Of a stretch of DNA of 54,101 bases, positions 368-26,113 are shown one piece after another. Positions within the stretch are counted from its first letter, which is position 1. Each line of letters opens with the position of its first letter. The position numbers and the translations under genes are program-made. The DNA comes from Candidatus Zixiibacteriota bacterium. Lineage in GTDB: Bacteria > Zixibacteria > MSB-5A5 > CAIYYT01. The stretch lies in contig JADYYF010000048.1 in NCBI GenBank assembly GCA_020853795.1, positions 1 through 54,101 of the forward strand. The letters run 5' to 3'. Below the pieces are notes generated by a model. The model searched no databases. It was not told the origin of the DNA and saw only the letters and a list, made by a program, of their open reading frames with translations.

Positions 368-662
368 TTGGCTTCGGTGGCTGCGGCAGCGTCCACGAAC
401 TCGGTATTCGTTTTCTCGCGGATACGACTTTGTCCACCGCGCATCGCGGTCTTGGAATCGATCTATCTGCGGGCCATGGGCTCCCAATCGCTTCTAAATC
501 GCCACTGTCGATTCGCGCCGTCCGGGCTTACCAGACGCTCGACAAATACCGAATCATTTCGTTTGGTGCTGCGCTGAGTTTCCGTTCCCACCTTTATCTG
601 AGGTCGTCTCGCAGTTCCACAAGTCAGGCGCCCGGCGCTCCCGACATGCCGCCATCCGCAGG
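368..662. other. Non-coding stretch between repeat copy 1 and the cupin gene
   Basis: I see no convincing gene, RNA or strong promoter here. Open frames crossing it have no plausible ribosome site or recognisable protein pattern. It may hold decayed sequence. Confidence 0.4.
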
Positions 663-1031
663 TCAGTCTTTGATCTCGACGGCGAGGACCCGCAGGTCGG
701 CATCACCGACATTTTGCAGTGTGTGCGGCTCGAGTGGGGATGACCAGAGCACGGCGCCGCGGTCCGGTCGCGAAGCAAGCGACCGTGAATCAACGAGCAC
801 TCTCCCAACGTGGTCGTAGCGGATGAAGTCGCTGAAGCTCTGGACATAGAGCACGCTGGGCCATCGATGAGTGTGCAGCGGAACTGTGTCGCCGGGAGGG
901 ATGATCGTTTCAAGTACGCGGACGCGCTCGTTTTCCAGGACAACCTTGTGATGCCCCGGCGCGGCGGTGAGAGCGTCGAGGCCGTCCGGCCAAGAGTCGA
1001 CTTTGGAGATATCGTTCTTTGGATCGTTCAT
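663..1031 (-). CDS. Small cupin-fold protein
   Basis: This is a 122-residue protein with a single cupin beta-barrel. The first cupin motif is seen as IPPGDTVPLHTHRWPSVLYV (residues about 45-64), with metal-ligand type histidines in HTH. The second motif is the region LEPHTLQNVGDADLRVLAVE near the C-terminus. Such small single-domain cupins bind a metal or a small ligand; the substrate cannot be told from sequence. No signal peptide is present, so it should be cytoplasmic. The ribosome site is weak (AGGCAGG upstream of the ATG). It stands alone on the minus strand between repeat copies 1 and 2, so context gives no clue to its pathway. Confidence 0.7.
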   Translation of the reverse strand: MNDPKNDISKVDSWPDGLDALTAAPGHHKVVLENERVRVLETIIPPGDTVPLHTHRWPSVLYVQSFSDFIRYDHVGRVLVDSRSLASRPDRGAVLWSSPLEPHTLQNVGDADLRVLAVEIKD

Positions 1032-1110
1032 TGCTGCCTGCCTGGCAATAGGGTTTCGAGGAGAAACTATTGATGGTAATAGAAATGTCCAGCGAGAAAA
1101 TGAGCGGCCA

Positions 1111-1284
1111 CCGGTAACCCACCTCCACCCGCACTACCCGCAACCAACTTCGCAGCAGGCTAGAACACCCCACCGTTCTGGTGAAGTACAACAACTCTCA
1201 ACACCGCCGCTTCTGTACCCCACCCACAGGGTGGGAAATCTGTCGATTGCTGCAATCATTGGTGTCTCCACCGCCTGCTGTTGA
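1111..1284. repeat. Dispersed 175-bp hairpin repeat, copy 2
   Basis: This copy has the same orientation as copies 1 and 3. The second hairpin is perfect: CCCACCC-ACA-GGGTGGG at 1219-1235. The first is weaker, with CACC pairing to GGTG. The gap 1032-1402 otherwise holds only a 14-codon frame (1073-1117) with a GAGGAG ribosome site, whose stop codon is supplied by the first bases of the repeat. Confidence 0.8.
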
Positions 1285-1402
1285 TATCGATCCCGCACAG
1301 CCAGACCCGCTTCGGCAGCGCAAATAGCGAAACAATTAGCATCATCCCGCGTCATAGACTATGTTGTCCGCGTTAAATAGCTCTCATCGAGGAGTATCAC
1401 CG

Positions 1403-2011
1403 ATGCAAATCCCGAGAATCCTCACCAGAGCATTGATGATTGCGCTGGCGTACGAGATAGTGTTCAAACTCGCTCATGTGTTTTCTCCGGCGCTCTTTGA
1501 GGATCCCGTGGTGCTCGCAATCACGCGATCGCTCGGCGTGCTGGTCGCGGTGATCATGATTTCGTTCCTGGTAGCCTTCTACCGGGCGGAACAATCCAAT
1601 CGCGGTTTGGCGATTACGTTGCAGATTCTGATCGCAGTTGTGATCCTGGCTTTCCTCCTGCGCCTTCCGGTCGCCCAAACTTGGTTTGGCTTCCAGACAG
1701 GTCGTTTGTCCGGTGCAATCATCGGTATCGTGCGATCAGCGCTTTTCATAATGGTGTTGATCCTCTATCGCCGAAAGATTGCAGGGAGCCACGCAGCGCT
1801 GAACTCCGCCGTGATCGTCCTGGCCGGGTTCTTCGGGGTCGGCGCAATCGTCAATCTGATCGCGCTCGTTGCCTTCGCGAGCTACCTCAATTCCGGCGCT
1901 GTGATTGAGCCGGCGCCTGTCATCATAGCGCTGCTGTTTCTATTGTTTGTATTGACTCGCCTCGCGGCAATCCATTTCCTCTACCGTTACGAAAAACATG
2001 AGCTGAAATAG
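1403..2011 (+). CDS. Uncharacterised six-helix membrane protein
   Basis: This 202-residue protein is almost entirely hydrophobic, with about six predicted membrane helices connected by short basic loops, including RAEQSNRG and LYRRKIAGS. I do not recognise the family. The start was placed at the ATG at 1403 because GAGGAG lies about 9 bases upstream; an earlier in-frame ATG at 1361 lacks a ribosome site and would only add a polar stretch. The C-terminus (YRYEKHELK) is charged and likely cytoplasmic. The gene is flanked on both sides by repeat copies 2 and 3 and has no operon partner. Its function is unknown. Confidence 0.7.
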   Translation: MQIPRILTRALMIALAYEIVFKLAHVFSPALFEDPVVLAITRSLGVLVAVIMISFLVAFYRAEQSNRGLAITLQILIAVVILAFLLRLPVAQTWFGFQTGRLSGAIIGIVRSALFIMVLILYRRKIAGSHAALNSAVIVLAGFFGVGAIVNLIALVAFASYLNSGAVIEPAPVIIALLFLLFVLTRLAAIHFLYRYEKHELK

Positions 2012-25114: not shown

Positions 25115-25315
25115 TCAGGAGAATTTGGAATTACCGCAGCCGCAACTCGTACCCGGCTTGCTACCGCTCGAGGATGTGGCAAACGTACTGAAGAGGCGCT
25201 CGAGTCGATCGGAGGCACAATGCGGGCAACGTTGCTCGTTGGCGACGCGCTCACTGGCGACCAGCAACTCGAATTTCCGGCCGCATTCTTTGCAGCAGTA
25301 TTCATAGATCGGCAT
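25115..25315 (-). CDS. FmdB-family zinc-ribbon protein
   Basis: The 66-residue protein begins MPIYEYCCKECGRKFELL, the hallmark of the FmdB putative regulatory-protein family. It has ligands C8/C11 and C30/C33 (RCPHCASDRLERLFS) and a Ser/Gly-rich tail with a CGCG motif. The family is small, cytoplasmic and of unknown function; the original link to formamidase regulation is weak. The start at 25315 has GAAGGGAAAG about 6 bases upstream, and that ribosome site lies inside the 3' end of the preceding small membrane ORF, so the two are probably translationally coupled. A longer reading adds only MKGKTA and lacks a site. Confidence 0.88.
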   Translation of the reverse strand: MPIYEYCCKECGRKFELLVASERVANEQRCPHCASDRLERLFSTFATSSSGSKPGTSCGCGNSKFS

Positions 25316-25499
25316 CGCGGTCTTTCCCTTCACTCAATCTCAGTCCAATCAGGGCGCCCAAAGCAGCACCAACCAGCGTCGTCGCCCACGGCGACGAGGT
25401 GATGCCTCACGTACTATGGCAGCCGATGAAATAATAATAGAGGTACCCCGCAATGGCAAGCGCCGCGGCCGAGATCAAAACGATTGACGTAGATTTCAT
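25302..25499 (-). CDS. Candidate selenoprotein: small two-helix membrane protein with in-frame UGA
   Basis: Read through the TGA at 25407-25409 this gives a 65-residue protein. It has a first membrane helix (SIVLISAAALAIAGYLYYYF), then FIGCHST-U-GITSSPW, a second helix (TTLVGAALGALIGLRL) and a charged tail. I recall a small uncharacterised membrane family (DUF6132-like) with a 'GC..G.CPITSNP' motif between two helices; the UGA falls on the second, conserved cysteine of that motif. The frame continues for 34 codons after the UGA without another stop and ends 14 bases inside fmdB, giving a coupling overlap. TGA is an ordinary stop in neighbouring genes, so code reassignment is unlikely. The start could be this ATG or one two codons upstream; GAGGTG precedes both. 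Selenocysteine itself is inference; see the hairpin at 25372-25400. Confidence 0.6.
25372..25400 (-). promoter_or_regulatory. Candidate bacterial SECIS hairpin
   Basis: On the minus strand, 10 nt after the TGA, CGTCGCC (25396-25390) pairs perfectly with GGCGACG (25386-25380) around a GUG loop. ACC (25400-25398) can pair with GGT (25374-25372) below an asymmetric bulge. The apical loop begins 17 nt after the UGA and its first base is G. Both match the published bacterial SECIS model (small apical loop, G in the first two positions, roughly 16-37 nt from the UGA). Confidence 0.5.
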
Positions 25500-25642
25500 A
25501 GTCATAGCATCGACGCACCTCGCGTCAAACATGATACGCAAAAATCGACAAATGGTGGGAATTCCCCGAATTAAGGGGCTCGAAAATCCGCTTGCCGCCG
25601 GGATCGTGAAGGCATATCGTGCCTGCAACCGGGGAGTATGTC

Positions 25643-26113
25643 ATGAAATATGAGTTGAAGCGAATCGCGATCTGGCCCGCCGTCAAAATCTCATTCTTGG
25701 TGCATCTGATACTTGGTTTTGTCGTGGGCATTTTTTATGCACTCTTTTTTGCGCTATTGATGTCGCTGCCGGCGTCGATGGGTGACGCTGATCTGGCGGC
25801 ATTGTCGGCGTTCTCGGGAGCGCTCGTTGTGTTCCTGCCGTTTATTGTCTCGATCTCGATGGCGGTTTTCAACACGATCTTCATTGTGATCGGGCTGGTG
25901 ATATTCAACTTCTTTACGCGGATCGCCGGCGGGCTGGAGTTTGAGCTTGCGCCTCTGGCTGAAACCGCACCAGTGGCGGTCGCCAGGCCGATGGCACCAC
26001 CGCTACCCACCGCTGCACCGCCGAGCCCAACGGAAGCGCCGACAGCACCACACTCGCCGTTCTCCCCCCCAATCAACACCGGCGAGGAACCACCGCAAGC
26101 ACCGTCATTATGA
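25643..26113 (+). CDS. DUF3566-like membrane protein with proline-rich tail
   Basis: This 156-residue protein begins MKYELKRIAIWPAVKISF, a charged start typical of DUF3566-type proteins. Two or three membrane helices follow (LVHLILGFVVGIFYALFFAL and FLPFIVSISMAVFNTIFIV), then a glycine hinge (FTRIAGGLEFEL) and a low-complexity Pro/Ala/Thr tail of about 45 residues. The start at 25643 has GGGGAG 8 bases upstream; an ATG at 25619 lacks a site. Its last codons overlap the ATG of gltX (ATGA), so they form an operon, although no functional link to charging tRNA is evident. The family function is unknown. Confidence 0.65.
   Translation: MKYELKRIAIWPAVKISFLVHLILGFVVGIFYALFFALLMSLPASMGDADLAALSAFSGALVVFLPFIVSISMAVFNTIFIVIGLVIFNFFTRIAGGLEFELAPLAETAPVAVARPMAPPLPTAAPPSPTEAPTAPHSPFSPPINTGEEPPQAPSL

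Follow-up and report, generated by a model that had tools for sequence, protein, structure and literature searches.

Sulfur import through membrane cysteines has been described for YeeE/SoxT (PMC11582611), and the GUxSG form of YeeE/YedE (PF04143) provides an example of a sulfur-traffic membrane protein in which selenocysteine (Sec) takes the place of a functional cysteine (PMC13188914, PMC11582611). A Sec-containing putative mercuric transport protein (PF02411), a small membrane protein with a Cys/Sec pair in the motif C/SxxU, is likewise a known selenoprotein (PMC13188914), and the GOS survey (PMC2398784) records a selenoprotein of the FmdB family (TIGR02605) with the motif UxxU. The locus presented here encodes a predicted two-helix membrane protein with a putative Sec in the loop between its helices, followed by fmdB. 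It differs from YeeE/YedE, which has four or nine helices, and the window protein gave neither a Pfam match to PF04143 nor a PDB sequence match to YeeE/YedE; a PDB sequence and profile search returned no similarity to any solved structure, and hence none to solved YeeE. PF02411 is a separate family, and the FmdB of the window is a Cys form without Sec, whereas Sec forms of FmdB are known elsewhere. With PF19628 (DUF6132) the protein shares the architecture of a small two-helix membrane protein and the loop GC-x-x-G-x-C-P-I/L-T-S-N-P, whose second Cys occupies the Sec place; it differs in scoring below the Pfam cut-off and in carrying Sec instead of that Cys.

DUF6132 is not among the 119 prokaryotic selenoprotein families of a 2026 review (PMC13188914), where no GSTU or GC-x3-U membrane family is recognisable either, although it may correspond to family GOS_A of 2008 (PMC2398784), depicted in a figure alone, or stand among the unnamed candidates of recent deep-Sep surveys of metagenome-assembled genomes. 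NCBIfam (release 20, June 2026) holds no relevant model for 18 family members, and the literature searched describes no Sec form of DUF6132, a DUF6132 query returning EamA/DUF6 transporters only. The gene very probably belongs to a new and widespread selenoprotein family, one that is known in kind and new as a family.

The window, meaning the whole stretch of 54,101 nucleotides that was analysed, comes from Candidatus Zixiibacteriota bacterium (assembly GCA_020853795.1, contig JADYYF010000048.1). In it, the Sec gene and a securely identified fmdB form a bicistron (Table 1). A DUF3566-like and a gltX-like gene are oriented away from this pair, and a sensor-kinase-like gene runs towards it. The first-pass annotation of this DNA had described a frame that meets TGA after FIGCHST, runs on for 34 further codons and ends 14 nt within fmdB, whose start lies inside the read-through frame, and this description is correct to the base. 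Its argument that the overlap makes sense only if ribosomes pass the UGA is weaker, since the sister genome G001 has a TAA that ends the frame immediately ahead of fmdB, and an overlap is thus not required. As judged from sequence, the read-through frame is more than a product of chance, because its translation matches DUF6132 across the UGA and because a single-sequence search of 195 genomes matched 19 others, of which 18 were convincing on reading and one (L034) was poor.

Table 1. Features of the Sec locus and its surroundings in the window
Feature	Position	Strand	Remarks
Predicted Sec-containing DUF6132-family membrane protein gene	25302..25505	(-)	67 residues, Sec at 33; ATG 25505, 32 codons, TGA 25409-25407, 34 more codons, closing TGA 25304-25302
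Predicted Sec protein sequence, 67 residues			MTMKSTSIVLISAAALAIAGYLYYYFIGCHSTUGITSSPWATTLVGAALGALIGLRLSEGKDRDADL
Predicted Sec UGA codon	25407..25409	(-)	aligned with the family's invariant Cys
SECIS-like hairpin	25365..25406	(-)	apical triloop GUG 25387-25389, 17 nt after UGA; stem CGUCGCC/GGCGACG
AGGTG, likely ribosome-binding site of the Sec gene	25516..25520	(-)	~10 nt before ATG 25505, read directly
fmdB, zinc-ribbon protein, second gene of the bicistron	25115..25315	(-)	ATG at 25315; TIGR02605 E 3.4e-17, PF09723 E 1.1e-14
DUF3566-like membrane protein gene	25619..26113	(+)	proline-rich tail; just ahead of gltX-like gene, order kept in G001

With Cys written for Sec, the read-through product matches the Pfam DUF6132 model over residues 9-55 (E 1.9e-4, 21.4-21.5 bits), a match that spans the UGA and falls slightly short of the PF19628 gathering cut-off of 23.2 bits. 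The single-sequence search establishes homology to members above the cut-off that have the same loop (G040, G017, G035, G023 and G030), and several Cys-form relatives in the class Zixiibacteriota pass the gathering score. The DUF6132 identity named in the first-pass annotation was right, and so was the loop it gave: homologues show GC-x-S/T-G-x-C-P-I/L-T-S-N-P with a Cys at the UGA place, and none of them ends there. In an alignment of 23 members only the Sec/Cys position and two glycines are invariant, with the Pro of the S/N-P motif and one further Gly nearly so. In the type found in the window, a Cys lies four residues ahead of Sec (GCHST-U), and in the GSTU type of a large sister group it lies four residues past it (GST-U-xxM-C). 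Three Sec-form members (L118, L119 and L122) have no Cys near Sec, which means that not every member has a partner thiol within its own chain. AlphaFold predicts helices at residues 3-28 and 39-65, at low confidence (pLDDT only 68, too weak a model to base a fold search on). Hydropathy and charge fit ends that are inside and a Cys-Sec loop that is outside; because positive charge sits at both ends and is nearly absent from the loop, the Cys/Sec loop of this two-helix hairpin most likely faces the periplasm.

The genome of the window is 99.9% complete and carries the whole set of Sec genes that the first-pass annotation had proposed to look for. A tRNA-Sec of 71.6 bits, confirmed by ARAGORN, lies on contig C210 with selA and selB directly behind it, giving selC-selA-selB in a row, and selD is at another site, within a long open frame that no stop interrupts. 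At the level of the family, the sister species G001 has a UGA at the corresponding position, and Cys is found there in the nearest relatives after it (G002 and G004). Over the class, the Pfam DUF6132 model recovers Cys forms only, with any match in just 8 of 133 genomes, and the family was therefore searched with its own alignments. An alignment reading through stops found it in 64 of the 133 Zixiibacteriota-class genomes, with UGA at the Sec place in 50 and Cys in 14. A DNA pattern for the GSTU type matched within the class Zixiibacteriota / GN15, plus one Fischerbacteria genome and one other. Outside the class, where a broad sample of 386 genomes and a small phylum were searched, 14 genomes have UGA at the position (L144, L145, L150, L151, L165, L167, L169 and L171-L177), a count that leaves out G292, which was also flagged with TGA. 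Two further flagged genomes, G419 and G342, were rejected as Sec forms; the TGA sits at the gene end and both are Cys forms. The UGA thus recurs at one column in about 64 genomes of many lineages, the sister species included.

Pairing of the UGA with tRNA-Sec is most informative outside the class, where tRNA-Sec is present in 14/14 UGA genomes vs 9/19 Cys genomes (Fisher p 0.001). Within one family there, G197 and G199 (UGA) have tRNA-Sec and their relative G198 (Cys) does not. Inside the class, tRNA-Sec is found in 107 of 133 genomes and, being nearly universal, discriminates little; a minority of Sec-form genomes lack a match, and most of these are incomplete assemblies. On a tree of 86 proteins, which the short length of the protein leaves poorly resolved, 13 Sec/Cys changes are required, at least 7 of them on well-supported branches. 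A clean exchange within the GSTU type is seen between L107, L108, L110, L111 and L115 (GSQ-C-MILCN) and L120 (GSQ-U-MLMCQ), otherwise alike proteins from the related lineages f10 and f14 of the class.

Comparison of related Sec genes gives a pN/pS of 0.29 after the UGA and 0.34 before it, and by this measure purifying selection acts on the codons downstream of the UGA. Synonymous sites change less there than in the part before the UGA (0.35 vs 0.50), as expected if the stretch codes for protein and carries an RNA signal at once. Folding of the 48 nt that follow the UGA has a mean z of -1.87 over 46 genes, relative to synonymous recodings with the codon usage of the locus itself, whereas control windows upstream, in fmdB and in long open reading frames average -0.07 to -0.56 (long frames about -0.1); the p-values of 1e-6 to 1e-15 are nominal only, since the sequences are related. 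In the window, this 48-nt stretch has a z of -3.07, with 0 of 200 shuffles as good, and the hairpin (-23.5 kcal/mol) follows the published bacterial SECIS rule of a hairpin 16-37 nt after the UGA, G in the first two loop positions and a minimum free energy of -7.5 or below (PMC13188914), with its GUG loop at 17 nt. G001 has a GGU loop at the same spacing, and G171 and G166 have loops GUU and GGUC at 20 nt. As a family-wide test this generic rule was dropped, as 20 of 46 genes pass and 22.5 are expected from shuffles, which leaves the exact SECIS of the large group tentative. That group has a suggestive second hairpin ~48 nt after the UGA (UGACC-GGUGC-GGUCA), fully paired in only 21 of 40 genes, with the variants UGGCC..GGCCA, UGAUC..GAUCA and UUACC..GGUGA and some compensatory change. 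An Rfam SECIS_1 search of the genome gave no match, and equally none in control genomes, which makes it uninformative. A SECIS of the type seen in the window, its stem of 6-8 bp capped by a triloop G[GU]U, also occurs in the SelD selenoprotein genes of the class, which encode an unrelated protein and have the loop at 20 nt rather than 17 nt. Some Cys-form genes also fold well at this place. In L017 and L018 (from G004 and G002), Cys forms of the window's own family, the RNA past the Cys codon folds with z of -1.9 and -3.7, as if a SECIS relic had persisted after a Sec-to-Cys change; G004 has no tRNA-Sec match.

The genes around the family are recurrent. In the large Zixiibacteriota group, OsmC lies upstream in 38/38 loci with enough flank and DUF302 in 32/38, FmdB comes after the Sec gene in 39 of 40 relatives, and a thioredoxin-like protein is nearby in 6 loci. 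The Cys forms of the class have the order DUF6132-FmdB-Trx-like. Outside the class, the Sec-form genes have no adjoining fmdB, and family members are found in the order thioredoxin-[Sec gene]-OsmC-ArsR-like (L165), ahead of OsmC (L167, L169 and L175), among OsmC and Trx-like genes (L162 and L170), and next to thioredoxin and CcmH (L153), rhodanese and Trx (L157), metallo-beta-lactamase (MBL)-fold plus rhodanese proteins (L129), an MBL-fold protein (L164) or DUF302 (L156). OsmC proteins act on hydroperoxides and persulfides. As the operon in the window holds fmdB alone, its thiol/sulfur context comes from relatives.

Two readings of the UGA compete with its decoding as Sec. A single in-frame stop in one metagenome-type assembly always raises the possibility of an ordinary stop, a sequencing error or a decayed gene, in which translation would end at the UGA and the downstream frame would be a relic. 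At the family level this is refuted by the same UGA in the same column of about 64 genomes from many lineages, by a downstream protein conserved at the pN/pS given above, and by the confinement of UGA outside the class to genomes bearing tRNA-Sec, and for the window we regard it as barely credible. The UGA and its hairpin could instead act as a selenium-dependent switch for fmdB, in which read-through brings ribosomes to the overlapping start and termination leaves fmdB idle. For most Sec-form loci in the class, the fmdB start does lie 87-100 nt past the UGA, and in the window it is inside the read-through frame, but Cys-form relatives keep the gene order without a UGA, and the out-of-class Sec-form genes lack an adjoining fmdB, which leaves the switch improbable. 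We are highly confident that the frame encodes a selenoprotein, a judgement that concerns its identity and not its function, because the sel genes, the Sec/Cys pairing, the co-occurrence with tRNA-Sec, the 13 changes, the pN/pS of the downstream codons, the RNA folding and the hairpin of the window itself all point to it. By this comparison, ribosomes of the lineage must read UGA as an amino acid, and the SelA, SelB, tRNA-Sec and SelD of the organism can make that amino acid Sec, most likely directed by the hairpin just after the UGA. The Sec insertion proposed in the first-pass annotation is strongly supported by the sel genes, the Cys homologues, the recurrent UGA and a downstream frame that is conserved in relatives under purifying selection.

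For the function of the protein, our best guess, tentatively held and falling a little short of an even chance, is a selenol/thiol relay in the membrane that handles sulfane sulfur or disulfides, because thiol and sulfane-sulfur proteins recur beside the family in unrelated lineages. The selenol of the hairpin would pair with a nearby thiol where one exists and would pass thiol/disulfide or sulfane-sulfur equivalents to and from partners of the thioredoxin, rhodanese and OsmC types; Sec in place of Cys would provide a faster-reacting nucleophile, and one more readily recycled, and FmdB, presumably co-expressed, may act in the same process. The earlier suggestion of a redox or metal role can be narrowed tentatively, from the neighbours, towards thiol/sulfane-sulfur chemistry. 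Handling of mercury or another soft metal ion in the manner of MerT, with the ion bound by the Cys-Sec loop and the zinc ribbon of FmdB taking part, draws on the resemblance of two short helices and a Cys/Sec pair to MerT, on the selenoprotein status of the mercuric transport protein and on FmdB as a constant neighbour in the class. We consider it unlikely, as no mer gene was recognised among the annotated neighbours, which are mostly thiol and sulfur proteins, and the lone Sec of some members would make a poor metal site. An oligomer of hairpins lined with Cys/Sec could alternatively import a sulfur or selenium compound like YeeE/SoxT; YeeE/TsuA/SoxT use channel cysteines, four-helix half-size forms exist (PMC11582611), YeeE/SoxT themselves include the GUxSG selenoprotein, and rhodanese and MBL-fold plus rhodanese proteins occur among the neighbours. 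With only two helices and no detectable sequence relation to any solved structure, such an importer seems a lesser possibility, perhaps one chance among several. Returning to the relay, a broader and somewhat more speculative proposal joins DUF6132 and the GSTU-type proteins related to it in one selenoprotein family, large, old and so far missing from catalogues, whose sole conserved reactive residue is often Sec and in which Sec and Cys have been exchanged many times; with OsmC, DUF302, thioredoxin and FmdB as partners, this family would supply the membrane component of a thiol/sulfane-sulfur pathway.

If these readings are right, gene calling that stops at UGA would halve these small membrane proteins in dozens of genomes, and one more family would join the roughly 119 prokaryotic selenoprotein families, few of which are membrane proteins, with Sec-DUF6132 probably among the smallest selenoproteins. 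The frequent natural Sec/Cys exchange and the thiol/sulfur neighbours would then help to work out what DUF6132, DUF302 and FmdB do, and so small a protein would be a convenient system in which to ask why Sec is chosen over Cys.

Several further arrangements were observed. The loci L026-L124 of Zixiibacteriota family f7 share a conserved operon OsmC - DUF302 - Sec-DUF6132 - FmdB, sometimes with a thioredoxin-like gene, possibly a sulfur/redox stress operon of the phylum. In isolate BWSM_10 (L085, ~592-1800, reverse strand), the Sec gene directly follows a di-haem cytochrome-c peroxidase-like gene and has no fmdB. The selD of the window's genome (L132, G000:C44:21503-22429) is part of an open frame of 766 residues, probably a fusion and without Sec, and G002 carries both such a frame and a Sec-containing SelD.
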